Below, one piece after another: positions 1,187 through 17,749 of a stretch of DNA of 64,000 bases. Both the position numbers and the translations under genes were made by a program. The DNA lies in the NCBI RefSeq assembly GCF_000384075.1, contig NZ_KB913025.1, forward strand, positions 872,119 through 936,118, given 5' to 3'. Every line of letters begins with the position of its first letter. The stretch's first letter is position 1. Origin of the DNA: Methylovulum miyakonense HT12. Lineage in GTDB: Bacteria > Pseudomonadota > Gammaproteobacteria > Methylococcales > Methylomonadaceae. The notes under the pieces are model-generated. The model made no database searches, was not told the DNA's origin, and was given only the letters and a program-made list of their open reading frames with translations.

Positions 1187-2692
1187 TCAGCCACGCGTGT
1201 AGCGGTGCTTCACGCCAACGGGGAAATAGCCGGGGTCTGCAAAGGGATGCAAGGTGATTTGTGGCATTTGCCGCTCTACTGGCGTGTAATTGGCAAATTC
1301 ACTGTTTAAACGCAATAACTGCTTGCGGATAGATGCGGCGATGGCAGGTTTCATGGCCTCGTCGGGGATAATCTCCGGCAATAGTTCCACGGCTATATGC
1401 AGGTATTTATCGCCAGCATCCGATTCTGCCGTTTCCAGGACAAATTTTCCGGTCACCCAGGCCAAAATATCGGGTTGTTCAAGGCCAACCGTGACATTTT
1501 CAGGGTAAATATTCGCCCCATAATAAGACACCGTGAAATCAGCCCGCCCGAACACATAGACAAACGGTAAGTTACGCGGCTGGAAATCGCCGTTTAAACC
1601 CAACTCGCCTAAGGAATGCACACCATACGCCCGCAAAAACGCCCAGAGCCCATCGTATCCCAACAAACCGCCCTTATCGGCAATATGGTAACGCAGCAAA
1701 GGCACGCTGTTTTCTCCTGAAACCACTAGCGTACCTTCATGCACTTCAAAGAAACGGCTGCTTGGGTCATATTGCACCAGCGTTGGCAACCGCGATTCGC
1801 CAAACAGCTCACGGGCGGCTTCGGGACGCGTGGACAACCAGCGGCGTATGGCGATGCTGAGCGGCGTTTCATTGCCCAGCACACCGCCGTCAGCCGTCCC
1901 ATAGAGCGATGCCGAATCGGAACACGGCGACTCCGAACCGATGCGTTGGCCGACCAAACTGCGCCATTCCTCGCTGAACACTTCCCCGGCAAACACCAGT
2001 TTTGGATGGTAAGCCCGCCAGTCGATGCCCTCGGCCGAACCGGCATCAAGCACATCTTTGACAAAAGGCGGATAACCCAACAGCACGGTCTGCTCGAAAT
2101 GCGGGGACAGCTCGCGCACCACCCTGAAAATTTCCGCTTTGTTATTCCCAGGTGTCGCGACCAATAAGGGATAACCTTTACGGGCCAAATGCCAGCAACA
2201 AGAGGTCGTGAACAAACCGCCCACCCAGTTGCCCAAAGCGAAGCAAACGATGGCCAAGGTGCTGCGTTCGTGGGCGCGGAAGCTGTCATGGAACACCTGC
2301 TCAAACCGCACCGCCACGTCCAGCTCATAGGTGGCGGAACGTGGCCAGAACGTTGGCCGCCCCGTCGAGCCGGACGACACGGCGATACGGTCGGCACCTT
2401 TAAGGCTGCCGCCAAAGCAGCGCTCCGGTAGCGGATAAGCCTGCATGTAATTGCTTTTGTCCATCAACGGCAAGGCCTGGAAAGCCGGGTAGGAACCAAT
2501 CCCGGCAGGATTGATGTGATGCGCCGCCAGAAACTGTCGGTATGCGGGAACCTCCACCGCGCATCGCCGGAACAAATCCAGGCATTTCCTTTCCGCTTGA
2601 CCTGGCTGTTGTCCGGCAAGCAAGGTATCTAGCGGCGTTGTGATGAAATGGTTGAAGCGGTCGTCAGATGGTGGCGGGGGCGGATTGGACAT
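1187..2692 (-). CDS. Adenylate-forming ligase, phenylacetate-CoA ligase (PaaK)-like
   Basis: A 501-residue member of the AMP-dependent synthetase superfamily. The phosphate-binding motif SSGSTGRPT is at residues 106-114, a YGTADGG stretch matches the A5-type motif, and LLRYHIADKGGLL near residue 337 resembles the A7/A8 region of PaaK/F390-synthetase-type enzymes. These enzymes activate a carboxylate to an acyl-adenylate and usually pass it to CoA or a carrier; the substrate here is unknown. The start is supported by AGAGG about 10 bases upstream. A proline run (residues 4-8) precedes the domain. It sits alone between the lipoprotein gene and a repeat-rich spacer, so context does not help with function. 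Confidence 0.8.
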   Translation of the reverse strand: MSNPPPPPSDDRFNHFITTPLDTLLAGQQPGQAERKCLDLFRRCAVEVPAYRQFLAAHHINPAGIGSYPAFQALPLMDKSNYMQAYPLPERCFGGSLKGADRIAVSSGSTGRPTFWPRSATYELDVAVRFEQVFHDSFRAHERSTLAIVCFALGNWVGGLFTTSCCWHLARKGYPLLVATPGNNKAEIFRVVRELSPHFEQTVLLGYPPFVKDVLDAGSAEGIDWRAYHPKLVFAGEVFSEEWRSLVGQRIGSESPCSDSASLYGTADGGVLGNETPLSIAIRRWLSTRPEAARELFGESRLPTLVQYDPSSRFFEVHEGTLVVSGENSVPLLRYHIADKGGLLGYDGLWAFLRAYGVHSLGELGLNGDFQPRNLPFVYVFGRADFTVSYYGANIYPENVTVGLEQPDILAWVTGKFVLETAESDAGDKYLHIAVELLPEIIPDEAMKPAIAASIRKQLLRLNSEFANYTPVERQMPQITLHPFADPGYFPVGVKHRYTRG

Positions 2693-3028: not shown

Positions 3029-3292
3029 CTAACAAATGTCATGATACCAATCCAAAAGTTCTTCCCCGCCCCAATTCTCGGCCTCGGCAGGAAAAACTTC
3101 AGGGGTTTCGTAAAGCGTCATTTGCCCTGTCTTAGGTGCAGTAGTGACCAATAAACTTTCTGCATATTCAACTGAACAGCCTTGCTTGCCGTTGGCGTCT
3201 TTTAGCCATTGCGCCGCCATGGCGATAGCGGCTTGGCGGGTTTCGCCAAAGCCGAAAACAGCATAATCGTGTTGCACATATAAAACGGTCAT
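3029..3292 (-). CDS. Small hypothetical protein downstream of nifA
   Basis: An 87-residue protein starting 16 bases after the nifA stop, with GGAG seven bases before the ATG, so it is probably the third gene of a nifL-nifA transcript. It is soluble and acidic towards the C-terminus, with no signal peptide, no membrane segment and no recognised motif. The sequence begins MTVLYVQHDYAVFGFG and has several aromatic residues plus two Cys. The family is not recognised. Co-transcription with nifLA suggests, but does not show, a link to nitrogen control. Confidence 0.65.
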   Translation of the reverse strand: MTVLYVQHDYAVFGFGETRQAAIAMAAQWLKDANGKQGCSVEYAESLLVTTAPKTGQMTLYETPEVFPAEAENWGGEELLDWYHDIC

Positions 3293-3308: not shown

Positions 3309-4850
3309 CTAAATTTGCTTCATCGTAATATCCAAAGTCGAAATCCGGTAGGCAATCTGCCTGGGGGTCATATTCAGCAAACGCGCGGCCTTAGCTTGTA
3401 CCCAACCGCTTTGCTCCAAGGCGGCGATGACCCGTTCGCGGTCATCCAAATTTTCATCATTAAAATCCACCGCCGGCAATTTTTGTGGCTTCAACGTGAG
3501 CCCCGCTTGCGCCACGACATTTTCCAACCCGGTATTGACCATGACATCACGGTCGATGGTGCCGTTGGGGCTCATTATCGCCGCCCGTTCCAAGCAATTG
3601 GCGAGTTCGCGGACGTTGCCGGGCCAGTCGTGTTTCATCAGGATACGGATCGCGCTTTCCTTGATTTCCAAAGGCCGTCCGCCCTGTTGGTCAGAAATCC
3701 GGCGTAACAAAAATTCCGACAATTCCGGTATATCCTCGCTACGGTCGCGTAAGGCGGGCATTTGGATAGGCATGACGTTGAGGCGGTAATACAAATCTTC
3801 CCTAAATTTGCCTTCGGTCACTTCTTCTTCAAGATTGCGGTTGGTGGCGGCGATAATGCGGACATTGACTTTAATGGTTTGCGCCCCCCCCACCCGTTCG
3901 AATTCGCCTTCTTGCAAAACCCGGAGCAGCTTGGCTTGGAACGAGGCGGAAATTTCACCGATTTCATCCAAGAACAAGGTGCCGTTATTGGCAAGCTCAA
4001 AACGGCCTTTTCGCTGGCTGATCGCGCCGCTGAACGCACCTTTCTCATGCCCGAACAACTCCGATTCCAACAAGGTGTCCGGCAAAGCCGCGCAATTGAG
4101 TTTCAAAAACGGCCCGCTGGCGCAACCGGAATTGAAGTGGATGGCGTTGGCGACCACTTCCTTGCCCGTGCCGGATTCGCCGCGTATCAGCACGGTGGTG
4201 TTCCATTTGGCGACTTGCCGGATCAGGTCAAACACTTTCAACATCGGCGGCGAATGCCCGATGATGTTTTCAAAGCGGTAATTCTTGATCAGGGCCTGCT
4301 TGAGCTGGTCGCGTTCGCTTTGCAGGTTGCGTTGTTTGCGCTCGATCACGCGCAGCATTTTCACGCTTTGCGCGATCAGGTTGGCGATCATCTCCAGGAA
4401 CCGTGCGCGTTCGCCCAAAAACAAACGGTTATCGGGTTGTGCCGCCAAGACGCCGATAGTGTCGCCTTGTTCGATGTAAATGGGCGATCCGATGAATGGC
4501 AATTCCGGGTCATACAAACCCATACGGCCTAGAAACCTGGGCTCTTCGGCAACTTTTTCGACAACGATGGTGCTGCCCGCATCAAGTATCGCCCCCATCA
4601 CGCCTTCCCCCGGATGGTAGCGTATGGGTTGGTTGAGTTGGCTGTCGGCATTGGCGTGCACCGCGCTGACAATCAGGCTATCGCTTTCAATCTCCTTGAG
4701 GGTGATCATGCCCGAGCGCATCCCTGAGCGTTTATGCAGCACTTCCAGCACGGCTTGCAATTTGGCATGCAAATCATGGGTGCTATTGAGGATCTGGCTG
4801 ATCAGATACAACGTGTCCAGCTCCGCCTCGATCAATTGGTTGCGTTCCAT
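3309..4850 (-). CDS. nifA: NifA, sigma-54-dependent activator of nitrogen fixation genes
   Basis: A 513-residue bacterial enhancer-binding protein. Residues 1-170 form a GAF-type sensor. The AAA+ domain (about 195-430) has Walker A GESGTGKE at 224-231, the sigma-54-contacting loop GAFSGA at 271-276 and Walker B TLFLDEIGE at 291-299. A Fis-type helix-turn-helix occupies the last 45 residues (AAARLLNMTPRQIAYRI). NifA binds TGT-N10-ACA enhancers and drives sigma-54 polymerase; two such sites lie in front of rnfA in this window. The start codon overlaps the nifL stop (TAATG), which implies translational coupling and a fixed ratio to its partner. The loop has Ser where GAFTGA-type activators usually have Thr. 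Confidence 0.95.
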   Translation of the reverse strand: MERNQLIEAELDTLYLISQILNSTHDLHAKLQAVLEVLHKRSGMRSGMITLKEIESDSLIVSAVHANADSQLNQPIRYHPGEGVMGAILDAGSTIVVEKVAEEPRFLGRMGLYDPELPFIGSPIYIEQGDTIGVLAAQPDNRLFLGERARFLEMIANLIAQSVKMLRVIERKQRNLQSERDQLKQALIKNYRFENIIGHSPPMLKVFDLIRQVAKWNTTVLIRGESGTGKEVVANAIHFNSGCASGPFLKLNCAALPDTLLESELFGHEKGAFSGAISQRKGRFELANNGTLFLDEIGEISASFQAKLLRVLQEGEFERVGGAQTIKVNVRIIAATNRNLEEEVTEGKFREDLYYRLNVMPIQMPALRDRSEDIPELSEFLLRRISDQQGGRPLEIKESAIRILMKHDWPGNVRELANCLERAAIMSPNGTIDRDVMVNTGLENVVAQAGLTLKPQKLPAVDFNDENLDDRERVIAALEQSGWVQAKAARLLNMTPRQIAYRISTLDITMKQI

Positions 4851-6469
4851 TAGCCTAACCTCCCAAGCTCCTGTCTGTGTAAAGGAAAGCTGATTTTGAA
4901 ACGGCAGCCTTGGTCATAACTGGGGTCTATATCAATAAAGCCATGATGCTGGTTGACAATTTCCTTCGCCATCACCAGCCCCATGCCCGCTTTGTGCCCG
5001 CCTAACACACGGGTGGTGTAGAAAGGCTCGAAGACTTTACTACGTTTTTCCATTGGAATGCCCGGCCCCGTATCCTCAATGCTGACATAGAGCAAATCCG
5101 CATCCGCATCGGTGGTGATTTTTATGCGCTGTTCGCCCGTGTCCGAGGCACAGACCGCATCAATGGCGTTATCCAGCAATTGGTGGAACAATACCCGTAG
5201 ACGGTTTTCCGACCCCAGAATACTGGGCAATTCCGCCAGCGGTTGCCAATGCACGTCTATGCCATTGCCCCAAATCCGTTGGTCGTTAAGCAGCAGCACT
5301 TCGTGCAAGATTTGGTTGATGTTGACCGGAATGACGGCGGTTTGCAAGATTTCAGGGATACAGTTTTGCATGGTGGCAATCGCCTCTTCACCGGAATGCT
5401 GGATTTGTTGCAAGATTTGCAATAACCCGGCGTTTTGGGCTTCGCACTTGTGCTTTAAAATTTGCTCCGCCGCCCGGATCTGGTTCATTGGCATGTGGAT
5501 TTGATGGATTGCGCCCAGTAAAGTTTCACGGATGCTGCGCACCCGCTCATCTTCCGACATGACGGTCTTTAAGGTCTGGATATGCAGCTCTTCCATTTGC
5601 CGCCGTTGACGGGAGATGTCGGTGATGGTCAGGATCAAATACTGTTTTGAGACGTTGTCGAAAAAGGCATCGGCATGGACTTCATTTTCCTTAAACCAAT
5701 TGCCTGCGCAAGAAAACCACCGCGCCCTACGGCCTGCCTTGCTTTCTATCCTGAATTCCCGGTTATTGAACCCCTGCTCATTCGTTTGCAGTTCCATCCA
5801 TAACCCGCCCATTTCTTCGCGCAATAAATGCAGGAAATACGCGGCCGGCTCGCCTTTGTCGAGATCGCTGACCAAGGCCTTGTAGTTATGGTTGTCCAAA
5901 ATCACTTTATCTTCATCGTCTATCACCACCATTGCAATTGGCGAGGAATTGATGACCGATTCAATCAACAGTTTTTGGTTGATGACCCGTTTGTCCGCTT
6001 CATGGGCTAGGGTAATATCCCGGTGCATCCCGATATAATGGCTAATCACCCCCTGTTCATTCAGCATCGGTGCGATGGTCAAATCGGCAATATAACGATG
6101 GCCCGATTTATGCCTGTTGCACAAAGTCCCGCGCCACACTTTTTTGCTGCGGATGGTATGCCATAAATCGTAATACACCGCCCTAGGCGTGCGTTTGTCC
6201 GATAAGACCGATTCGTTTTCACCTAAAATGTCTTCGGGCTTATACCCGGTGACCTTGGAGAACTCTTCGTTGACGTAAAGGATTTTGGCTTTTTTATCGG
6301 TGATGGAAATGGCAATGGGGACTTGCTCCACCGTTTCCACAAACAAGCTGTAAGGTGTGGTGTCACCGTTAAAATTGGCCGCCGAGCCAAACAAACCTGG
6401 GACAAGTTCGCCAATGACGCTGGTCATGTTGGTATGCGCCTGTAAAAATTGTAATGAGGTCTTTTTCAT
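4850..6469 (-). CDS. nifL: NifL, redox- and nitrogen-sensing inhibitor of NifA
   Basis: A 539-residue protein with the NifL layout: PAS1 at about 42-150 (probable flavin-binding redox sensor), PAS2 at about 165-290, a histidine-kinase-like helical region with IHQIHMPMNQIRAAEQ around residue 320, and a C-terminal GHKL nucleotide-binding domain with LLDNAIDAV and DTGPGIP boxes. In Azotobacter and Klebsiella NifL binds and silences NifA under oxygen or fixed nitrogen; GHKL nucleotide binding tunes this without classical phosphotransfer. Position directly upstream of nifA with a one-base overlap, and divergence from rnf, support the identity. A perfect TATAAT lies about 30 bases upstream. Confidence 0.93.
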   Translation of the reverse strand: MKKTSLQFLQAHTNMTSVIGELVPGLFGSAANFNGDTTPYSLFVETVEQVPIAISITDKKAKILYVNEEFSKVTGYKPEDILGENESVLSDKRTPRAVYYDLWHTIRSKKVWRGTLCNRHKSGHRYIADLTIAPMLNEQGVISHYIGMHRDITLAHEADKRVINQKLLIESVINSSPIAMVVIDDEDKVILDNHNYKALVSDLDKGEPAAYFLHLLREEMGGLWMELQTNEQGFNNREFRIESKAGRRARWFSCAGNWFKENEVHADAFFDNVSKQYLILTITDISRQRRQMEELHIQTLKTVMSEDERVRSIRETLLGAIHQIHMPMNQIRAAEQILKHKCEAQNAGLLQILQQIQHSGEEAIATMQNCIPEILQTAVIPVNINQILHEVLLLNDQRIWGNGIDVHWQPLAELPSILGSENRLRVLFHQLLDNAIDAVCASDTGEQRIKITTDADADLLYVSIEDTGPGIPMEKRSKVFEPFYTTRVLGGHKAGMGLVMAKEIVNQHHGFIDIDPSYDQGCRFKISFPLHRQELGRLG

Positions 6470-6498
6470 ATCACGGCCTGGTGTGAAGGGTTATTTCT

Positions 6499-6504
6499 AT
6501 TATA
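6499..6504 (-). promoter_or_regulatory. Candidate sigma-70 -10 box for nifLA
   Basis: On the minus strand this reads TATAAT, 30 bases before the nifL start. No good -35 hexamer lies at the standard spacing (TTACTG at 16 bases is weak), so the promoter may be activator-dependent or only partly recognised. Confidence 0.35.
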
Positions 6505-6647
6505 TTAGCAATTTTGACGCCAGTAATTTTTACCTTAGCCGAAAGATACGCCAAGCGGGGCAACTATAAAATCCGGCATATCCCAATCCACCAATCCCCC
6601 GTGCCCCCCGGCCTTTTTGTAGCTAAAGATGTCCGCCAATTTCATTT

Positions 6648-6663
6648 TGTAAGGTTTACGACA
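6648..6663 (+). promoter_or_regulatory. NifA upstream activator sequence 1 (TGT-N10-ACA)
   Basis: Exact match to the NifA enhancer consensus, TGT-AAGGTTTACG-ACA. It lies about 108 bases upstream of the -24 element of the rnfA sigma-54 promoter, within the usual enhancer range. Confidence 0.8.
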
Positions 6664-6688
6664 AAATCTTTTCCCCTCCGCCACCGAC

Positions 6689-6704
6689 TGTAAGAAGTGC
6701 CACA
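6689..6704 (+). promoter_or_regulatory. NifA upstream activator sequence 2 (TGT-N10-ACA)
   Basis: Second exact match, TGT-AAGAAGTGCC-ACA, centred 41 bases from the first site (close to four helical turns) and about 67 bases upstream of the -24 box. Paired sites on the same face of the helix are common at NifA-controlled promoters. Confidence 0.8.
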
Positions 6705-6770
6705 GCCCCCAAAGCGGGGGTTGCCAACCACCAAGCCCATCCCGCCCGCCTCACTATCCCCTAAGCAAAT

Positions 6771-6786
6771 TGGCATAATTACTGCT
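6771..6786 (+). promoter_or_regulatory. Sigma-54 -24/-12 promoter for the rnf operon
   Basis: TGGCAT-AATTA-CTGCT matches the TGGCAC-N5-TTGCA consensus with the invariant GG (6772-6773) and GC (6784-6785) separated by exactly 10 bases. It lies 40 bases before the rnfA GTG start and downstream of two NifA enhancer sites. Confidence 0.8.
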
Positions 6787-6825
6787 GGGATCCAGAAAAG
6801 CCCTACCCTTCGTCAGGAAACAATT

Positions 6826-7407
6826 GTGAGTGAATATCTGCTTCTTTTATTAGGCACGGCTCTGGTCAATAACGTCGTCCTAGTGAAATTCCTCGGCCTG
6901 TGCCCGTTTATGGGCGTATCGAAAAAACTCGATTCGGCCTTAAGCATGGGCCTGGCGACCACGTTTGTATTGACGTTGGCGGCGATGACCAGCTGGCTGT
7001 TGGAACATTATATTCTCGCCCCGCTGCATATCGAATTTTTGCGCATACTTGCCTTTATTTTGGTGATAGCCGCCGTGGTGCAATTTACCGAAATGGTCGT
7101 GCATAAAACCTCCCCGGTACTGTATCAGATCCTGGGCATTTTCCTGCCACTGATCACCACCAATTGTGCGGTGTTGGGCGTGGCCTTACTGAATGTGCAG
7201 GAAAAATACGGTTTTATGCAAAGCCTGATTTTCGGCTTCGGTTCTGCGGTCGGTTTTACCCTGGTGATGGTGCTGTTTGCCGGATTGCGCGAACGGCTGG
7301 CATTAATGGCCGTCCCGGCGCTATTTGCAGGCACACCGATTGCTTTCATCACCGCCGGGATTTTGTCGCTGGCGTTTATGGGGTTTGCAGGGCTATATAC
7401 AAAATAA
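6826..7407 (+). CDS. rnfA: RnfA, membrane subunit of the Rnf electron-transport complex
   Basis: A 193-residue integral membrane protein with six predicted helices, characteristic of RnfA (early motif [17 protein letters not shown]). Rnf couples NADH and ferredoxin/flavodoxin redox chemistry to ion movement across the inner membrane; in diazotrophs it makes reduced ferredoxin or flavodoxin for nitrogenase. The GTG at 6826 was chosen because it gives the standard RnfA N-terminus ([10 protein letters not shown]) and length and has AGGAAA about 6-11 bases upstream; an in-frame ATG at 6697 would translate promoter sequence. It is first in rnfABCDGEH and follows a sigma-54 promoter with NifA sites. 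Confidence 0.95.
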
Positions 7408-7422
7408 GCACAGGAAAAAAAC

Positions 7423-7977
7423 ATGTACGTTTTCTACGCTATTGTCAGTTTAACGTTATTAGGCCTCTTTTTAGGTTTATTGCTGGGGATTGCCGGCAAG
7501 TATTTGAAAGTGGAAAGCAGCCCGATAGTGGATGAATTGGAAGCCATGCTGCCCGGTTCGCAATGCGGGCAATGCGGGTTTCCTGGTTGCCGTCCTGCCG
7601 CCGAAGCGTTGGCGGAAGGCAACGCCCCCGCCACCATTTGCCCGCCCGGTGGCAGCACGCTAGCGGAACAAATCGCCGCGCTTTTGGGTTTGGATTTGGA
7701 TTTAAGCGAAGTCAAGGAACCGGAATTGTTGGTTGCCAGAGTCAGCGAAGCCACTTGTACGGGTTGCACCCGTTGCTTTAAGGTTTGCCCTACCGATGCC
7801 ATCGTCGGCGCGCCCAAACAAATCCATGCGGTCGTTGCCGATGCTTGTATAGGATGCAAAAAATGCGTCGAGGTTTGCCCGACCGAATGCTTGCAAATGC
7901 ACCCGATAGAAGTCACTTTACGGAACTGGCGATGGGCCAAACCCAGCGCCCCAATGACGGGTAACGCCCTATGTTAA
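7423..7977 (+). CDS. rnfB: RnfB, iron-sulfur subunit of the Rnf complex
   Basis: A 184-residue protein with an N-terminal membrane anchor (residues 4-26). A [4Fe-4S]-binding motif follows (Cys48, 51, 56 and 73), then two ferredoxin-type clusters (Cys112, 115, 118, 122 and Cys142, 145, 148, 152). RnfB is the entry/exit point for ferredoxin electrons on the cytoplasmic side. The ATG is 15 bases after rnfA and the 3' end overlaps rnfC by 7 bases, which suggests coupled translation. Confidence 0.95.
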   Translation: MYVFYAIVSLTLLGLFLGLLLGIAGKYLKVESSPIVDELEAMLPGSQCGQCGFPGCRPAAEALAEGNAPATICPPGGSTLAEQIAALLGLDLDLSEVKEPELLVARVSEATCTGCTRCFKVCPTDAIVGAPKQIHAVVADACIGCKKCVEVCPTECLQMHPIEVTLRNWRWAKPSAPMTGNALC

Positions 7978-9458
7978 GCCTGTTCAGCAAACCGCGCATC
8001 AGGGGCGGCGTCCATGCCGAAGAGCATAAAGCCATCACGGCGTCCCAAACGATAGCCTATGATTTCCCGTTGCCGGAAAAACTCTATATCCCTTTGCAGC
8101 AACATGTCGGCAAACCCGCCGAACCTTTGATCCGGGTCGGTGATGCCGTGTTGAAAGGCCAATTGTTGGCCTACAGCCAAGGCCTGATTTCCGCGCCCGT
8201 CCACGCGCCTAGCTCCGGCGTCATTTTGGATGTCAATGACTACCCTGCCCCGCATCCGTCCGCCTTGCCAATCAGGATGATCGTATTGGCAACTGACGGC
8301 AAAGACGAGTGGGTCAAAACACCCGACATTGGCGACCCGTTCCAATTAAGCCCGGAAGATATCAGCTTGCGCGTCGGTGCGGCCGGCATCGTGGGTTTGG
8401 GCGGCGCGACCTTCCCGACCGCCGTCAAGCTGAATATGGGCCGCGAGAACCGTATCGACACGCTGATCATCAACGGTGCGGAATGTGAGCCGTATTTGAG
8501 TTGCGATGACCGGCAAATGCAAGAACGTAGCGCCCAAATTATCGATGGCGTGCGCCTGATGCTGCATGGCATGGAAACCCATCATGCCGTGGTGGCGATT
8601 GAAGACAACAAGCCCCACGCATTTTATGCCATGCAAGCCGCAGCACAGGCTTTTCCAGAAATTAAGGTAGTGCAAATCCCCACCCGTTATCCGATGGGTT
8701 GGGATAGGCAATTGATCCGCTATGTGACGGGCCGCGAAGTGCCGGTAGGCTGCCGCTCGTCGGAAATCGGCGTCACTATCCACAATGTCGGCACGGCTTA
8801 CGCCACACACCAAGCGATACGCTACGGCCAACCCTTAGTCAGCCGGGTGGTCACCGTCTCCGGCGGCGCGGTCGGGCGGCCGATGAATGTCGAAGTGCCG
8901 TTAGGCACGCTGATTTCCGAATTGTTCGCGTTTTGCGAAGTTGACCTGGCGCAAACCGCGCGCATCGTCATGGGCGGGCCGATGATGGGTGATTCCTTGC
9001 CACACACGGGTTTACCGACCGTCAAGGCCACCAGCGGCATTTTGGCCTTGACGCAACACGAACTTAAGAGCACCGATGAACAGCCCTGCATACGCTGCGC
9101 CAGCTGCGTGAGCGTATGTCCGGCGGGTTTGCGGCCTTTGGATATGGCCAACAACATTAAGGTCAACCAACTCGATGCTGCCGTGGATATAGGCCTGAAA
9201 GACTGCATCAGTTGCGGCTGCTGTTCGTACATCTGCCCGTCCAATATCCCGCTGGTGCAATATTTTAAATACGCTTCCGGTGAAGTCGCCGCCAGACAGC
9301 AAGCCCAACATAAATCCGAACAGACCAAACGCCTGATGGAAGCGCGGCAAGCCCGCCTGGAGCGCATCGCCCAGCAGCAACGGGAGGAAGAAGAGGCGCG
9401 TATCGCCGCCAAACGGGAACGCGAACGCCTGAAAGCCGAGCAGGAGGCTGCCGCATGA
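7971..9458 (+). CDS. rnfC: RnfC, NADH- and FMN-binding subunit of the Rnf complex
   Basis: A 495-residue peripheral subunit. The N-terminal RnfC barrel-like region (GGVHAEEHK near residue 12) is followed by an NADH/FMN-binding NuoF-like domain (VGLGGATFPTAVKL at 141-154, NGAECEPYL at 168-176), an SLBB region, and two [4Fe-4S] motifs at Cys373/376/379/383 and Cys412/415/418/422. A charged, Ala/Glu/Arg-rich coiled-coil tail (about 440-495) is common in gammaproteobacterial RnfC. It overlaps rnfB by 7 bases and rnfD by 4 (ATGA). The tail is shorter than in the very long enterobacterial RnfC proteins. Confidence 0.95.
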   Translation: MLSLFSKPRIRGGVHAEEHKAITASQTIAYDFPLPEKLYIPLQQHVGKPAEPLIRVGDAVLKGQLLAYSQGLISAPVHAPSSGVILDVNDYPAPHPSALPIRMIVLATDGKDEWVKTPDIGDPFQLSPEDISLRVGAAGIVGLGGATFPTAVKLNMGRENRIDTLIINGAECEPYLSCDDRQMQERSAQIIDGVRLMLHGMETHHAVVAIEDNKPHAFYAMQAAAQAFPEIKVVQIPTRYPMGWDRQLIRYVTGREVPVGCRSSEIGVTIHNVGTAYATHQAIRYGQPLVSRVVTVSGGAVGRPMNVEVPLGTLISELFAFCEVDLAQTARIVMGGPMMGDSLPHTGLPTVKATSGILALTQHELKSTDEQPCIRCASCVSVCPAGLRPLDMANNIKVNQLDAAVDIGLKDCISCGCCSYICPSNIPLVQYFKYASGEVAARQQAQHKSEQTKRLMEARQARLERIAQQQREEEEARIAAKRERERLKAEQEAAA

Positions 9459-10528
9459 TAACCCACCATAAACCCAGCAGCGGCGCCCATGTCGGCGCCA
9501 ACAAAAGTGTCGGCCAGATCATGTGGCAAGTCATCTTGGCCTTAATGCCCGCAACGGCTTTTGGGCTTTGGTGCTTTGGTTGGCCCGCCATTTTTTTGTT
9601 CATTATCACCGTGTCATCGGCGATGTTGTTTGAAGCCTTGTGCATCCGCCTGAAAGGGCGTGCCGCCAAACCTGTGATTATGGACGGCTCCGCACTATTG
9701 ACTGGCTGGCTATTGGCAATGACCCTGCCGCCCTGGGCGCCCTGGTGGATAGGCGTGGTCGGCGCGGGTTTGGCAATCATCTTGGGCAAACAAGTCTATG
9801 GCGGGCTGGGGCAGAACCTGTTCAACCCTGCGATGTTGGCGCGGGTTGCCTTGTTGATATCCTTCCCGATTGAAATGACCACTTGGGCGAACGTCTCACC
9901 ACTGTTTTTTTCCGGCTCACCTGGATTTGCCGAAAGTTGGCGCATCACTTTTTCCGGCTTGGGAAATCTCGATGCGTATACAGGTGCGACCACGCTGGGC
10001 TATATTAAAACCGAATTTTCACAAAACCGGGTGTTGCCGGACATCCTCAATGATTATTCGGCGGTGCTGAATTTTATCGGCTGGACACGCGGCAGTTTGG
10101 GGGAAACATCCACTATTTTACTCGGGCTTGGCGGAGCCTGGCTGATCCGCGAGAGAATCATCCCATGGCAGATTCCCGTGGCCCTGCTGGCGACGGTGGC
10201 AGGGCTGGCCAGCGTGTTCCATCTGCTTGACAGCGACCATTATGCCAGCCCGTTTTTGCATTTAAATTCCGGCGCAATGATGTGCGTGGCTTTTTTCATC
10301 GCCACCGATTACGTCACCTCCCCGAACACCGCAACCGGACAACTGGTGTTTGGTGCCGGCTGTGGTTTATTAATTTTTGTCATACGCACTTGGGGCGCAT
10401 ACCCTGAAGGGGCGGGTTTTGCTATCTTACTGATGAACTCGGCGACACCGTTGATAGACCATTACATCCGGCCTAGGATTTACGGACGCGACCGTAAAGG
10501 TAAGCCGCTAGAAATACCGAAACCATAA
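9455..10528 (+). CDS. rnfD: RnfD, flavinylated membrane subunit of the Rnf complex
   Basis: A 357-residue polytopic membrane protein of the NqrB/RnfD family. The motif TGATTLG at 176-182 is the site where FMN is attached covalently to threonine (Thr179) by the flavin transferase ApbE. GQNLFNPAMLAR near 119-130 is another family signature. It lies on the membrane path of electrons between RnfG and RnfC. Translation is coupled to rnfC through a 4-base overlap. No apbE gene is present in this window. Confidence 0.95.
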   Translation: MITHHKPSSGAHVGANKSVGQIMWQVILALMPATAFGLWCFGWPAIFLFIITVSSAMLFEALCIRLKGRAAKPVIMDGSALLTGWLLAMTLPPWAPWWIGVVGAGLAIILGKQVYGGLGQNLFNPAMLARVALLISFPIEMTTWANVSPLFFSGSPGFAESWRITFSGLGNLDAYTGATTLGYIKTEFSQNRVLPDILNDYSAVLNFIGWTRGSLGETSTILLGLGGAWLIRERIIPWQIPVALLATVAGLASVFHLLDSDHYASPFLHLNSGAMMCVAFFIATDYVTSPNTATGQLVFGAGCGLLIFVIRTWGAYPEGAGFAILLMNSATPLIDHYIRPRIYGRDRKGKPLEIPKP

Positions 10529-10652
10529 AGCCCCAATCCAATCCCGTCTGCCCCGCCATAAAATGGGATTGCGTGCCTTGCCGTATGCGACTTACGCGGA
10601 TATTGGCTTTATCGCCGCATTGGAACGGCAACCATCTATCAGGAAGCAAGCG

Positions 10653-11360
10653 ATGAAACACCACATCCCCATAGACCACCTAAAAGCCCTGGGCGCCCAC
10701 TATTGGGGTTGCTTGCAACGGTGGCTAGAACCCGGCAACCTCGCCAACCTCAGGCCTAAACTTGAATTCCAAACTGGCATCTTAGCGGGGTTTGCATTGC
10801 TGGCTAGCGTCTTGCTTGGCGTGACCAATTGCAGCACCGAAAGCACCATCCAGCAACGCTTGGCTGAAGATTTGCAAAATTCACTTGCGGAAGTCATCCC
10901 TGCCGGACTGCATGATAACGACATGCTGCAAGATTTCCGGACCATCCCGTCCGCCAACTACAATATCGGCGCAGAGGAAACGGTAGTTTACCTCGCCAAA
11001 AAATCCGGCATAGTCACTGCCGTGTGCTTCAAATTCACCGCCCCAGATGGGTATTCCGGAGCGATAAATATGATCATGGGCATAGACCGTGATGGAAATA
11101 TTTTAGGCGTGCGGGTGCTAAGCCACAAGGAGACCCCTGGCCTAGGCGATAAAATCGAAGTCACCAAATCCAATTGGATATTAAATTTTGTCGGCCGATC
11201 CTTGGATAATTTGACTCCTGCGCAATGGGCAGTGAAAAAGGACGGTGGGGAATTCGACCAATTTGCGGGAGCCACCATCACTCCACGCAAATCAGTGCAA
11301 GCCATTCATCGCGGTTTACAATTGTTCAAAGAACATCAAGCCGAACTTATCAACCCCTGA
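10653..11360 (+). CDS. rnfG: RnfG, flavinylated subunit of the Rnf complex
   Basis: A 235-residue protein with one N-terminal membrane helix (about 41-58) and a periplasmic FMN-binding domain. The flavinylation motif is A-G-A-T at 205-208, with Thr208 the expected FMN attachment point; Ala replaces the more usual Ser/Thr at its first position. The ATG at 10653 is preferred to the upstream in-frame 10563 because AGGA lies just upstream and the earlier codons are unlike the family. There is a 124-base gap after rnfD, the largest in the operon, with no obvious terminator. The cytoplasmic N-terminal extension (about 40 residues before the helix) is longer than in many RnfG proteins. Confidence 0.92.
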   Translation: MKHHIPIDHLKALGAHYWGCLQRWLEPGNLANLRPKLEFQTGILAGFALLASVLLGVTNCSTESTIQQRLAEDLQNSLAEVIPAGLHDNDMLQDFRTIPSANYNIGAEETVVYLAKKSGIVTAVCFKFTAPDGYSGAINMIMGIDRDGNILGVRVLSHKETPGLGDKIEVTKSNWILNFVGRSLDNLTPAQWAVKKDGGEFDQFAGATITPRKSVQAIHRGLQLFKEHQAELINP

Positions 11361-11370
11361 GGGCATAACC

Positions 11371-12108
11371 GTGTTTTTACCTGAAAACTACCGCAAAATT
11401 GCCACAGATGGCATTTGGAACAACAATATCGTGTTCGGGCAAAACTTGGCCTTATGCCCCTTGCTTGCCGTCACTGGAACCGCCACCAACGGTCTGGGCA
11501 TGGGCTTGGCCACGCTGGTTGTCATCACCGCTTCCAACGCCCTAATTTCCATCACACGGAATTTAATACCCAGCCAAATCCGTATTCCAATATTCGTGCT
11601 GCTGATTGCCGCCTTAGTCACCTTAGTTGATATTTTGATGAATGCTTGGGCGCATGAACTGTACAAGGTGCTGGGGCTTTTCATCGCCTTGATCGTCACC
11701 AACTGCGCCCTGCTAGGCCGCGCCGAAGCGTTTGCTTCCAAACAGCCCGTTAAGGAAGCGTTATGGGATGGCATAATGATGGGCATTGGGTTTTTACTGG
11801 TTTTAGTGGCGCTTGGGGCCGCACGGGAAATCAGCTCGACAGGCACGTTATTTGCCAACGCTTCATTGCTGTTAGGCGAGTCGTTCCGGTTTTTAGAAGT
11901 CACGGTCATTCCCAACTACCAAGGCTTTTTATTGATGGCCCTACCACCTGGTGGTTTCATCATGCTGGCGTTTTTGATTGTCGGCAAGCGTTTGATCGAC
12001 CAAAAACTCGCATATAACCATACGCATGCAGGAGGCAAAGCAATGCCTGAAGCCATTATTGATAAAGAAACGCCTGCACCTATTTCAACTATTAGCATCG
12101 CAGACTAG
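11371..12108 (+). CDS. rnfE: RnfE, membrane subunit of the Rnf complex
   Basis: A 245-residue integral membrane protein of the RnfA/RnfE (NqrD/E) family, with the signature NNIVFGQNLALCPLLAVT near the N-terminus and about six helices. RnfA and RnfE form an inverted pair in the membrane that holds an iron centre between them. The GTG at 11371 is chosen because it gives the standard N-terminus and has GAGGG about 9 bases upstream; the frame upstream to 11245 only overlaps the end of rnfG. A hydrophilic tail of about 30 residues extends past the last helix. Confidence 0.93.
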   Translation: MFLPENYRKIATDGIWNNNIVFGQNLALCPLLAVTGTATNGLGMGLATLVVITASNALISITRNLIPSQIRIPIFVLLIAALVTLVDILMNAWAHELYKVLGLFIALIVTNCALLGRAEAFASKQPVKEALWDGIMMGIGFLLVLVALGAAREISSTGTLFANASLLLGESFRFLEVTVIPNYQGFLLMALPPGGFIMLAFLIVGKRLIDQKLAYNHTHAGGKAMPEAIIDKETPAPISTISIAD

Positions 12109-12122
12109 CTTTAGGGGGCTTT

Positions 12123-12383
12123 ATGAATGTCGGAGTGTGTTATGCAGAAGTCGATAGGCAATTGTGGATGCGTTTGGAAGTTCCCGATAACAGCACTATC
12201 GAGGAAGCCATTAAGTTGTCAGGCGTATTAAAACTTTACCCTGAAATCAACCTTAGCAACCAAAAAGTCGGTATATTCGGTAAAATAGCCTCGCTTGACA
12301 CGCTGGTGAAAGATGGCGACAGGGTGGAAATATATCGTCAAATTACCGCCGACCCCCAAACCGTACAACGGCGTAGGCGCTAA
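12123..12383 (+). CDS. rnfH: RnfH family protein
   Basis: An 86-residue protein of the RnfH/YfjF family, with a ubiquitin-like beta-grasp fold. Recognisable features are an N-terminal VGVCYAE motif and a C-terminal VKDGDRVEIYRQITADPQ, typical of the family. It ends the rnf operon 14 bases after rnfE. RnfH is found at the end of rnf operons in diazotrophs such as Azotobacter and Rhodobacter; its precise role is unknown, and it is not a core electron-transfer subunit. There is no obvious terminator in the 190 bases between it and the convergent ABC-F gene. Confidence 0.9.
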   Translation: MNVGVCYAEVDRQLWMRLEVPDNSTIEEAIKLSGVLKLYPEINLSNQKVGIFGKIASLDTLVKDGDRVEIYRQITADPQTVQRRRR

Positions 12384-14780: not shown

Positions 14781-16025
14781 TTAGATGAAAGTTGGAATTA
14801 ATGGAGCATCTATAGTGATCAACTGACGTTTGCCAGCTTCATCATAGAAGAACAACAAGCCAGCAAAACGGCTATCTGGATCGTAAATCAAGTCAGCTAA
14901 ACGGTAAACTTCCCATGCAGCGTCAGAAGCAGTAACTTGGACAGTTCTTGATTGACCTGGAGCCAGAGGGCTGTTATCACTAACAGTCAGACCTTCTTCA
15001 GCCAACAAATCATCAGGATATCCAGTTTCGTCTTGAGCAACATTAGCGTCCATGAAACGTACGCCAGCAGTGTTGAATTCGCCTAAACGAATAGCGGAAT
15101 CACCGTTATTTGTAATAGTCAAAGTCATTTGCATTGCACGACCAGGTACACGGTATGTAGCATCTTCTACTTTAACAGCTACAGAAGTAGCTGGCATTTC
15201 GATAGATTTAATACCACGCAACAAACCAGCTTGTAATGGAGTTGTTACTGGATACTGTTCGTTAGTTGAGCTCATTGACATAGCAACGATCGCAATAGTA
15301 CCAGCTGCAAAACCCATTGCCACTTTTCTGTCTGTACCACTGATTAATGAATCAGCTTTGCCAGATTCAACAGCGATTGAACGTGGAACGAACATTGGCT
15401 TTTTCATCCAATAGCCCATCCAAGCCAAACCTAAAGCATACCAGAATGCATGCCAAAAGTATGTGTTGTCCAGATTGTAAGTTTCTAGGTCGATTGTTTC
15501 ACCAGTCAACGTAGTAATTGGGTTTGTAAAGTCTTTCATAGAACCAGTAACAGTTACCCATTTACCTGGACCGATGATTGGACCACCACCTTTTACGTTT
15601 AACATGGTGTGAACATGCCAGTCACCTGGACGACGAGCTTTCAACAGAACTTTGAAGTCATAAGTTTCGCCCAGTTCCAAAGAAACTGAACGTGGAACCA
15701 ATTGACCACCGATCCAAGATCCGGCACGGATAAATACTGGACCAGGAATACCAATGTTCAAAAATGAAATTTCTGGTTTATCAACAGTTTCTGGCCATCC
15801 GCTGAAAACGAAGAATTTTCCGGAGATAGTCATTGTGTCGTTTACAGCAACCTCTTCTTTTGACCAGTTCAAATCGAACCAGTGAATAGTACGCATACGC
15901 ATAAACGCAGCTTGAGATTTTTCACCGTGTGCAGCAGCAGTTGGTGTGTAAAACATCGATGCTGTTACAGTAGCCAGCAATGCGACAAAGGATAATTTAG
16001 CAACCTTGTCTTTTAATAATTTCAT
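14781..16025 (-). CDS. pmoB: PmoB, particulate methane monooxygenase subunit B
   Basis: A 414-residue subunit with an N-terminal signal sequence (about residues 1-32), two periplasmic cupredoxin-like domains and two membrane helices in the middle and towards the C-terminal half. The CuB ligands known from Methylococcus capsulatus are all present at the same numbers: His33, which follows the signal sequence, and His137/His139 in WHVHT. pMMO oxidises methane to methanol at the intracytoplasmic membranes. It is third in pmoCAB, 95 bases after pmoA, with a strong GAGGAGG ribosome site, and ends at an intrinsic terminator. Codon third positions look more A/T-rich than in neighbouring genes, in line with very high expression. 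Confidence 0.98.
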   Translation of the reverse strand: MKLLKDKVAKLSFVALLATVTASMFYTPTAAAHGEKSQAAFMRMRTIHWFDLNWSKEEVAVNDTMTISGKFFVFSGWPETVDKPEISFLNIGIPGPVFIRAGSWIGGQLVPRSVSLELGETYDFKVLLKARRPGDWHVHTMLNVKGGGPIIGPGKWVTVTGSMKDFTNPITTLTGETIDLETYNLDNTYFWHAFWYALGLAWMGYWMKKPMFVPRSIAVESGKADSLISGTDRKVAMGFAAGTIAIVAMSMSSTNEQYPVTTPLQAGLLRGIKSIEMPATSVAVKVEDATYRVPGRAMQMTLTITNNGDSAIRLGEFNTAGVRFMDANVAQDETGYPDDLLAEEGLTVSDNSPLAPGQSRTVQVTASDAAWEVYRLADLIYDPDSRFAGLLFFYDEAGKRQLITIDAPLIPTFI

Positions 16026-16120
16026 ATATCCTCCTCTATAATAGAGAATCTATAGTTTTTAAGTATCTAGCGCTATACAAATTTTTCAATTTAAGCCACT
16101 AGGTCATTATATTTTAGCTC

Positions 16121-16864
16121 TTAAGAAGACTTAACGAAGTCAGTCTTATTGAACCATTGACCGAAGAAATGCCACAAGAAGTATATTAAGATACTTACGA
16201 AACCAGAGAAGAACGCTGATACTGGAGCAACGTCTTTACCGAAAGTTCTCAGTGTACCTTTTTCTACCATTCTGATGTACTCAGGAGTACCAGTTCTAAC
16301 GTAGTGGTAACCTTGCAAGTCAGCCAAAGTCATCATCATGCCGTTGTATTCAACAGGAACATGTAATGGAGCAATGATTGGCCAGTTACCAGGGTAGAAC
16401 AATAAGCCATAAGCCAATCCGCCCAATACTGCTGTCAAAGTCATGCTGCCTGAAAGCATCAAGATAACATCAAGAACGATAGCACCTGGCATCAAGTTTG
16501 ATGGGAAAACGAAGTTTACTGGGAAATATGTCCAACCCCAGAAGTTCAGGTATCTGTTAATCCATTCACCTAACAACAAACCCAAGATGCAAAGAACTGC
16601 ACCGAAAGGCAAACGGTAACGCCACCACAACATAGCTTGTACGGCAGCAGGGAAAGTGATAGAAACGATTGGTGCTACAGTTACCCATAGACGTCTATCT
16701 TTCCAGTCAGTCCAGAAATCCCAGTCACCACCAGTTAACATATAGTGAATGTGATAACCACCAAGAACAACGAAGAACAATGTAAAACAGATTAGCCAAT
16801 CGAACGTACGAGAAGCTTTAACAGCTTCAGCGCGTGAACGTACAGCTGATTGAGATGCGCTCAT
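16121..16864 (-). CDS. pmoA: PmoA, particulate methane monooxygenase subunit A
   Basis: A 247-residue membrane subunit, the standard length of pmoA, which is the usual methanotroph marker gene. Motifs GGDWDFWTDWKDRR (about 64-78) and VNFVFPSNLMPGA are those of true PmoA rather than AmoA; about seven membrane helices are expected. It packs against PmoC in the membrane part of the trimeric enzyme. The start has a strong AGGAGG about 8 bases upstream. It is separated from pmoC by 132 bases that contain a stem-loop (16920-16951). Confidence 0.98.
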   Translation of the reverse strand: MSASQSAVRSRAEAVKASRTFDWLICFTLFFVVLGGYHIHYMLTGGDWDFWTDWKDRRLWVTVAPIVSITFPAAVQAMLWWRYRLPFGAVLCILGLLLGEWINRYLNFWGWTYFPVNFVFPSNLMPGAIVLDVILMLSGSMTLTAVLGGLAYGLLFYPGNWPIIAPLHVPVEYNGMMMTLADLQGYHYVRTGTPEYIRMVEKGTLRTFGKDVAPVSAFFSGFVSILIYFLWHFFGQWFNKTDFVKSS

Positions 16865-16919
16865 TAGCTTACCTCCTAAAAGGATTTAAATTATTTTTAT
16901 AAATACTATCTTTTCATTC

Positions 16920-16951
16920 TCACCGCTCCGCAAACTAGGCCAAAGCGGTGA
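16920..16951 (-). promoter_or_regulatory. Intercistronic stem-loop between pmoC and pmoA
   Basis: An 8-base stem, TCACCGCT / AGCGGTGA, with a 16-base loop and no U-run after it. It could stabilise or mark a processing point in the pmoCAB transcript, or cause partial attenuation; this is inference from position only. Confidence 0.45.
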
Positions 16952-16996
16952 TCATTTAGGAGATAGTTGGTTTACTTTTTACGACCAGACTATAGA

Positions 16997-17749
16997 TTAA
17001 GCCAAGTCTTTTTTCAGAAGTTTAGATATTGAAGCAACTTCTGTATTTACAACACCCATTACACCCAAAGCAGCCCATCCGAAGAATACGAAACCGTAGT
17101 GTAAAGGAGCAACGAACAATTCTTCCATGAACCAGAAAGTGTGACCCCATTCGTTCAAACCTACGTTAGGCAGAATCATGAAAGGACCAACTACTGATAC
17201 CAAGTATTGCAGAGACAAACCTTGTTGGTAAGCTGGCAATCTAGTTTTTGCGTACAAGAAAGATGCGCCACCAGTGATGATGTAGATTGGGTAGCTCAAA
17301 TAGAATTCGATGATGTGACTTGGAGTGAAGTCAGTATCACGAACGATAGTTTGATGCCAAGTACCATCTTGCTCTGTAAAGTAGCTAGCACCGTAATAGA
17401 TAGCGATACCGTACATTACCAACCAAACCCAATGTGTAAAGTGTCTTCTCAATTCTTCTCTTGGAGTAATTGACATAACTTTACGGTCACGAGTTTTCCA
17501 GATATAGCCCCACAGGATACCTGCAGTAGACACTTCTAAAACGAACTCAATATAAAGGAAGTTCATCCAGTATGTTTCGAATTCAGGTGCAAATGAATCC
17601 AGACCAGCTGACCAGCCGTAGACACCTTCATACCAACGAACCCAACCATAGAAAATTATGTAAACTAGGGCACCTAGATACATATTTTTTTTATTTAACA
17701 GCGGTGCTTCCGCAGCATCAGCTTTCACTGATTCAGTTGTAGCTGCCAT
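16997..17749 (-). CDS. pmoC: PmoC, particulate methane monooxygenase subunit C
   Basis: A 250-residue polytopic membrane protein and the first gene of the operon. The metal ligands of the PmoC copper site are conserved: Asp128, His132 and His145, with the same D-x3-H-x12-H spacing as Asp156/His160/His173 of M. capsulatus. The N-terminal 20 residues are hydrophilic and Ala/Glu-rich. AGGAG lies 8 bases before the ATG. The operon order C-A-B and strong ribosome sites are typical of type I methanotrophs. Confidence 0.98.
   Translation of the reverse strand: MAATTESVKADAAEAPLLNKKNMYLGALVYIIFYGWVRWYEGVYGWSAGLDSFAPEFETYWMNFLYIEFVLEVSTAGILWGYIWKTRDRKVMSITPREELRRHFTHWVWLVMYGIAIYYGASYFTEQDGTWHQTIVRDTDFTPSHIIEFYLSYPIYIITGGASFLYAKTRLPAYQQGLSLQYLVSVVGPFMILPNVGLNEWGHTFWFMEELFVAPLHYGFVFFGWAALGVMGVVNTEVASISKLLKKDLA

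Follow-up and report, generated by a model that had tools for sequence, protein, structure and literature searches.

A predicted two-way NifA/sigma-54 control region between the divergent nifLA and rnfABCDGEH genes

Nitrogen fixation in aerobic methanotrophs requires low-potential electrons, and a locus in which rnfABCDGEH lies back to back with the regulatory genes nifLA raises the question of what controls the expression of the rnf operon. This locus lies in a 64-kb stretch of DNA, which was analysed as a whole and is referred to here as the window. An earlier note on its sequence had described two NifA-type sites and a sigma-54 promoter in front of rnfABCDGEH, with nifLA transcribed in the opposite direction. 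The present analysis leads to a wider reading, according to which NifA and sigma-54 would act in both directions from the spacer 6470-6825, driving rnfABCDGEH when NifA is active and probably nifLA as well. A probability of about 0.88 is assigned to this reading.

The divergent layout is evident from the gene map and from profile matches, which are listed with the coordinates in Table 1. NifL contains PAS and kinase-like ATPase domains, and NifA contains GAF, AAA+ and HTH domains, as is characteristic of a NifL-NifA pair. About 2.4 kb past rnfH, a methane/ammonia monooxygenase operon with the gene order C-A-B is encoded on the minus strand (14784-17749). The bacterial AmoA/B/C NCBI models outscore the joint methane/ammonia models in all three monooxygenase subunits, and the host can fairly be read as a gammaproteobacterial methanotroph. 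Just 3' of nifA, an 87-aa open frame (3029-3292, minus strand) matches no NCBIfam or Pfam family, and a 501-aa protein (1187-2692, minus strand) is weakly matched by phenylacetate-CoA ligase models and by none from Pfam. A second RnfB-like gene with 43% identity over the match lies elsewhere in the genome (C1:3277349-3277741), with no RnfA found within the surrounding 12 kb.

The spacer extends over 356 bp between the minus-strand ATG of nifL (6469) and the plus-strand GTG of rnfA. A pattern scan of the window returned two exact TGT-N10-ACA sites in it, UAS1 (TGTAAGGTTTACGACA) and UAS2 (TGTAAGAAGTGCCACA), whose starts are 41 bp or about four helical turns apart; UAS1 is enclosed by the larger dyad ATTTTGT-N10-ACAAAAT. 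The -24/-12 element of rnfA, TGGCATAATTACTGCT, has GG at 6772-6773 and GC at 6784-6785 and is correctly oriented. Thus, the order and spacing that the earlier note had given for the two sites and the GG-N10-GC promoter were confirmed at the level of coordinates. With an rnfA transcript start assumed at about 6797, UAS1 and UAS2 are centred at about -141 and -100, respectively. An IHF-like site between UAS2 and the rnfA promoter was no better than in shuffled sequences. In the same interval, a G+C-rich inverted repeat (CCCCC-AAAGC-GGGGG, 6706-6720) was spotted by eye.

Table 1. Genes and predicted control elements at the nifLA-rnf locus (window coordinates).
Feature	Position	Strand	Evidence and remarks
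nifA	3309-4850	-	TIGR01817, 678.1 bits (cut-off 528.85); GAF, sigma-54 AAA+ and HTH_8 domains
nifL	4850-6469	-	TIGR02938, 605.6 bits (cut-off 242.45); PAS and HATPase domains
nifLA -24/-12 (sigma-54-like) promoter, predicted	6507-6522	-	Expected transcript start about 6496; match at 9 or more of 12 positions in 114/114 spacers
UAS1, NifA-type TGT-N10-ACA	6648-6663		Dyad 6644-6667; agreement 0.835 over 14 related spacers (whole spacer 0.489)
UAS2, NifA-type TGT-N10-ACA	6689-6704		41 bp from UAS1; pair (39-42 bp) and promoter in 100/114 spacers
rnfA -24/-12 (sigma-54) promoter, predicted	6771-6786	+	Expected transcript start about 6797; agreement 0.924 over 14 spacers
rnfA	6826-7407	+	GTG start most likely; TIGR01943 and NF003481 above cut-off
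rnfB	7423-7977	+	TIGR01944 above cut-off
rnfC	7971-9458	+	TIGR01945 above cut-off
rnfD	9455-10528	+	TIGR01946 above cut-off
rnfG	10563-11360	+	TIGR01947 above cut-off; ORF start probably too early, match from residue 73
rnfE	11245-12108	+	TIGR01948 and NF009070 above cut-off; ORF start probably too early, match from residue 48
rnfH	12123-12383	+	NF002490 (RnfH family) above cut-off

In the proposed mechanism, NifA at the two dyad sites would contact sigma-54 RNA polymerase waiting at 6771-6786, and rnfABCDGEH would be made when NifA is active, i.e. when NifL does not restrain it. By analogy with relatives, the Rnf complex would use the membrane ion gradient to drive the reduction of a low-potential ferredoxin or flavodoxin by NADH, and this carrier would then feed nitrogenase. 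The rnf operon is very probably switched on together with nitrogenase via the conserved switch in the spacer. The earlier note had named redox state as the signal read by NifL; this is a partial statement, as NifL responds to fixed nitrogen as well as to redox.

Single TGT-N10-ACA sites are common. The window contains 9 compared to a mean of 13.85 expected, which is no enrichment, and the genome contains 709 compared to 779 for a reversed control pattern. One site therefore means little, and the case rests on the arrangement. The 356-bp spacer was subjected to 20,000 dinucleotide shuffles: at least one site arose in 575 of them, at least two in 11 and a strict plus-strand promoter in 35, and the composite of sites and promoter arose in none. 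In the 4.69-Mb genome, one site located 50-80 bp before TGGCAYN6TGC was found three times, with no match for the reversed-pattern control. These three matches precede rnfA, an iscA-like gene followed by nifU, nifS and nifV, and nifB. A chance origin of the composite was ruled out by the spacer shuffles together with this genome scan. At gaps of 81-110 bp, seven genome matches and one control match were obtained; the seven are the farther sites of the rnfA, iscA-nifUSV and nifB promoters, a match at nifH, and three (near 3501728, 3808417 and 3923725) for which no link to nif genes was found and some of which, given the one control match, may be due to chance. The second of these (3808417-3808552, locus L295:1501-1637) consists of a NifA-type site and a -24/-12 motif beside an ammonium-transporter gene on the opposite strand, with a downstream frame that has no Pfam match; this arrangement may also be fortuitous.

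The earlier note had proposed to look for the spacer motifs in relatives and had named a lack of them there as a refutation of its reading; the motifs proved to be widely conserved, so that this check did not refute it. Of the 237 family genomes searched, 128 gave a NifL match, and 128 upstream loci were read (G134, G162 and G183 were left out; three genomes contribute two loci each). At 114 of these loci, rnfA was visible with at least 200 bp upstream and adjoins nifL. A site pair 39-42 bp apart (start to start) together with a strict promoter is present in 100 of the 114 spacers. No spacer among the other 14 is devoid of sites, and all but one contain the promoter: nine spacers from genus g26 carry two sites just 18 bp apart, four carry a single exact site, and one carries two sites with no strict promoter. 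At 14 of the 128 loci rnfA was absent from the DNA read, and in five of these cases it was located farther away. In one genome (G013), it lies about 1.65 kb from nifL and has two sites and the promoter; in four genomes of genus g27, it lies at least 13 kb from nifL on the same contig, always with the promoter and with two sites in two genomes and one site in the other two. When 14 spacers including that of the window (13 from genus g1, one from g24) were aligned, the mean share agreeing with the window's base was 0.714 in UAS2; the values for UAS1, the rnfA promoter and the whole spacer are given in Table 1.

Two further samples gave a similar picture. In a collection of titled genomes, 80 loci were listed, and the best 22 of these, which are NifL-like, were examined; the other 58 are mostly distant kinases. 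Among these best 22, 18 have rnfA, all 18 with at least one site, 10 with at least two and 17 with a promoter-like match. They include Methylobacter marinus A45, Methylobacter luteus IMV-B-3098 and Methylomicrobium sp. RS1 as well as Marinobacterium mangrovicola and Halochromatium glycolicum; Methylococcus or Methylocaldum does not occur by name among the 80 loci listed. A thin sample of the class had NifL in 21 of 369 genomes, and the pair and promoter were present in 9 of 14 rnfA-bearing loci checked, with the window's own locus excluded.

The distance between the sites and the rnfA promoter is also patterned. In the 100 standard spacers, the gap from UAS2 to the promoter is 53-55 bp in 6, 63-67 bp in 53, 75-78 bp in 36 and 86 bp in one, with four at 100, 110 or 143 bp, and several of these steps occur inside single genera (g1, g11, g13 and g17). 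For the thirteen distinct gaps of up to 90 bp, a period of about 11 bp fits so well that only 1 of 5000 random sets did as well. Such stepping is the trace expected if contact is made on a single face of the helix, and the result is suggestive because relatedness stays in the gap sampling. On the nifL side, weak helical phasing was seen at distances of up to 105 bp, a level attained by 10 of 5000 random sets, and none was found beyond. The random sets on both sides use distinct gap values, among which kinship of the genomes remains. Rayleigh figures on 40 genus-gap pairs were set aside, as related genomes are not independent.

In the sister family f4, most rnf1 genes are found apart from nifLA. 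A search of 26 NifL-positive genomes (25 from f4, one from f6) yielded an rnf1-type RnfA with about 78-85% identity in 23 genomes, all belonging to f4. nifL adjoins rnf1 in four of the 23 copies and was not found within 1.5 kb upstream in the other 19. The pair and a promoter match (last -12 base relaxed) are present within 420 bp of rnfA in 13 of the 19 unlinked copies; one more has a single site and a promoter, and five lack a site up to 700 bp from rnfA. All four linked copies have a promoter match, two of them with a pair (one at 31-bp spacing) and two with a single site. In two of the five site-less copies (L190:12253-19501 and L191:11766-19501, both genus g41), rnfA is preceded by genes encoding a GlpC-like iron-sulphur protein and a Rieske protein. 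Near rnf1 and away from nifL lies a NifA gene that scores above the model cut-off. A site is located 77 bp before a GGGCATCGTTATTGCT element at the head of this iron-sulphur/Rieske/rnf1 row. Thus, control seems to have been mostly kept in f4 while adjacency was lost, and in these two copies it may have been shifted to the front of a longer operon.

The association of nifLA with rnf, apparently in divergent orientation, has been reported for most NifL groups, and the separation of the two in group G3 (Methylococcus capsulatus and Methylocaldum szegediense) was described as 'more difficult to rationalise' (PMC6490700). Judging from kinship, family f4 would correspond to G3. The sister family offers a simple answer to this published puzzle, as its genes are mostly apart and their control is mostly kept. 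We lean slightly towards a more general proposal, in which selection in gammaproteobacterial methanotrophs acts on the grammar of the rnf1 promoter and not on its neighbourhood. This grammar would consist of a pair of NifA sites four turns apart and at whole turns from the -24 element; it would persist after the separation of rnf1 and nifLA, and the spacer would double as a self-activation switch for nifLA as long as both are linked. If true, this would explain the Methylococcus/Methylocaldum exception.

On the nifL side of the spacer, a sigma-54-like -24/-12 element, TGGCGTCAAAATTGCT, had been overlooked by the earlier reader. It is encoded on the minus strand and ends 37 bp before the nifL start. 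Between UAS1 and nifL, every one of the 114 spacers has such a match compared to 4.6 expected from shuffles, with TTGC at -12 in 111 of them. A narrower count over the last 150 bp before nifL gave 76 of 114 spacers compared to 2.6 expected; many of the misses there have a nifL match that starts inside the gene. Between the sites and the nifL promoter, distances range widely from 35 to 367 bp, which makes the role of the sites at this promoter less sure. As nifLA has its own sigma-54-type promoter in the spacer and an NtrC-like site is missing, self-activation by NifA is likely: NifA probably activates its own operon, and UAS1 and UAS2 would probably also serve the nifLA promoter.

It could even be argued that the sites mainly serve this self-activation and that rnf is expressed from another promoter. 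The match before nifL in all spacers is in line with this, as is the NifA dependence of nifLA in P. stutzeri (PMC2820453). However, the sites have a tight, stepped spacing to the rnfA promoter as opposed to a wide one to the nifL promoter, they are kept at rnf1 copies away from nifL, and no sigma-70-like promoter was found in 6300-7000, all of which makes this alternative improbable. A search of 6300-7000 for a terminator gave none either. It is still less likely that another sigma-54 activator such as NtrC drives the promoters and that the NifA-like sites are incidental: dyad sites are used by many sigma-54 activators and nifLA is under NtrC control in enterobacteria, but TGCAC-N7-GTGCA has no match in the spacer at up to two mismatches, and the sites are of the NifA type that is common to nifH, nifB and the nifU row.

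Just as little weight falls on the possibility that the operon is an rsx operon for SoxR reduction, located beside nifLA by coincidence. The NCBI models match under Rsx as well as Rnf names, and a survey of 97 Methylobacter genomes describes the cluster as rsxABCDGE and mentions a role with SoxR, yet it notes that the cluster coincides with Nif (PMC12810054). Against an rsx function, the nif-linked RnfA type is absent from all of the 24 NifL-less family genomes that were tested, of which 23 have at least 90% completeness and at most 5% contamination; ten of the 24 have only more distant RnfA matches with 45-68% identity. Among 16 regions upstream of distant RnfA matches, one contains a single site and none a strict promoter (one region comprises only 87 bases). 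In family f4, no site was found in the seven upstream regions examined for a second RnfA type with 66-70% identity (one comprising only 338 bases); 16 further matches to this type lie outside the seven counted. NifA sites thus occur at an RnfA type that is encoded divergently from nifLA in the window and is absent from the NifL-less family genomes tested. The sites favour a nitrogen-fixation reading of the Methylobacter cluster.

NifA/sigma-54 control of rnf, which the earlier note had proposed, is strongly supported by position, genome-wide specificity, conservation and the behaviour of mutants in other diazotrophs. The note had also presented the compact nifLA-rnf unit as a feature of a methanotroph; the unit is present, but it is not special to this organism, since the divergent arrangement has been published as widespread (PMC6490700). 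NifA control of rnf adjacent to nifLA is established elsewhere, and the wiring described here is not new. The present analysis extends it to many methanotrophs, including some in which the gene sets have separated, and adds the change of site-to-promoter distances in steps of about 11 bp. The sequence evidence speaks for an Rnf complex under NifA control in the window's family and makes the locus a clear knockout target for genetically tractable methanotrophs.

For methanotrophs, no description of these promoter elements in gammaproteobacterial strains was recognised in the open-licence literature. In RNA-seq data of the related methanotroph Methylomicrobium buryatense 5GB1, rnfCH and rsxABDEG are raised at one CH4/O2 ratio along with nifHDK and nifLA (PMC7154130), which agrees with control of rnf by NifA but is no test of NifA itself. 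According to PMC12727197, NifA and -24/-12 motifs occur at the nif operons of Methylosinus sp. 3S-1, an alphaproteobacterial methanotroph; a word count of the accessible text returned no mention of rnf. For a type Ib methanotroph, the Rnf complex is mentioned without a link to NifA in the accessible part of the source (PMC6553558).

Divergent nifLA-rnf1 genes under NifA control have been published for Azotobacter vinelandii, Pseudomonas stutzeri and Azoarcus (PMC6490700, PMC2820453, PMC3916325). In A. vinelandii, rnf1 is linked to nifLA, regulated by NifA and proposed to form a dedicated electron path to nitrogenase (as summarised in PMC6490700); this organism belongs to another lineage, and the likeness described here concerns linkage and regulation. 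P. stutzeri A1501 has nifA, nifL and rnfA-H in one row with TGT-N10-ACA sites, and rnf and nifLA are both among 11 NifA-sigma-54 operons; the NifA dependence of rnf was determined by qRT-PCR in nifA and rpoN mutants, given as data not shown (PMC2820453). In contrast to the window genome, where nifH is about 0.67 Mb away and a methane/ammonia monooxygenase operon lies near rnf, the row in P. stutzeri runs on into nifHDK (PMC2820453). In Azoarcus sp. BH72, tandem NifA sites are located upstream of rnfA1 and nifL, and rnf1, but not rnf2, is raised under N2 fixation in a NifA-dependent manner according to a nifA mutant array (PMC3916325); this strain is a betaproteobacterium. Methylococcus capsulatus and Methylocaldum szegediense of group G3 are likewise methanotrophs with nifLA; rnf and nifLA are apart there and adjacent in the window (PMC6490700), and rnf1 of family f4 from the same order mostly keeps the NifA-type promoter.
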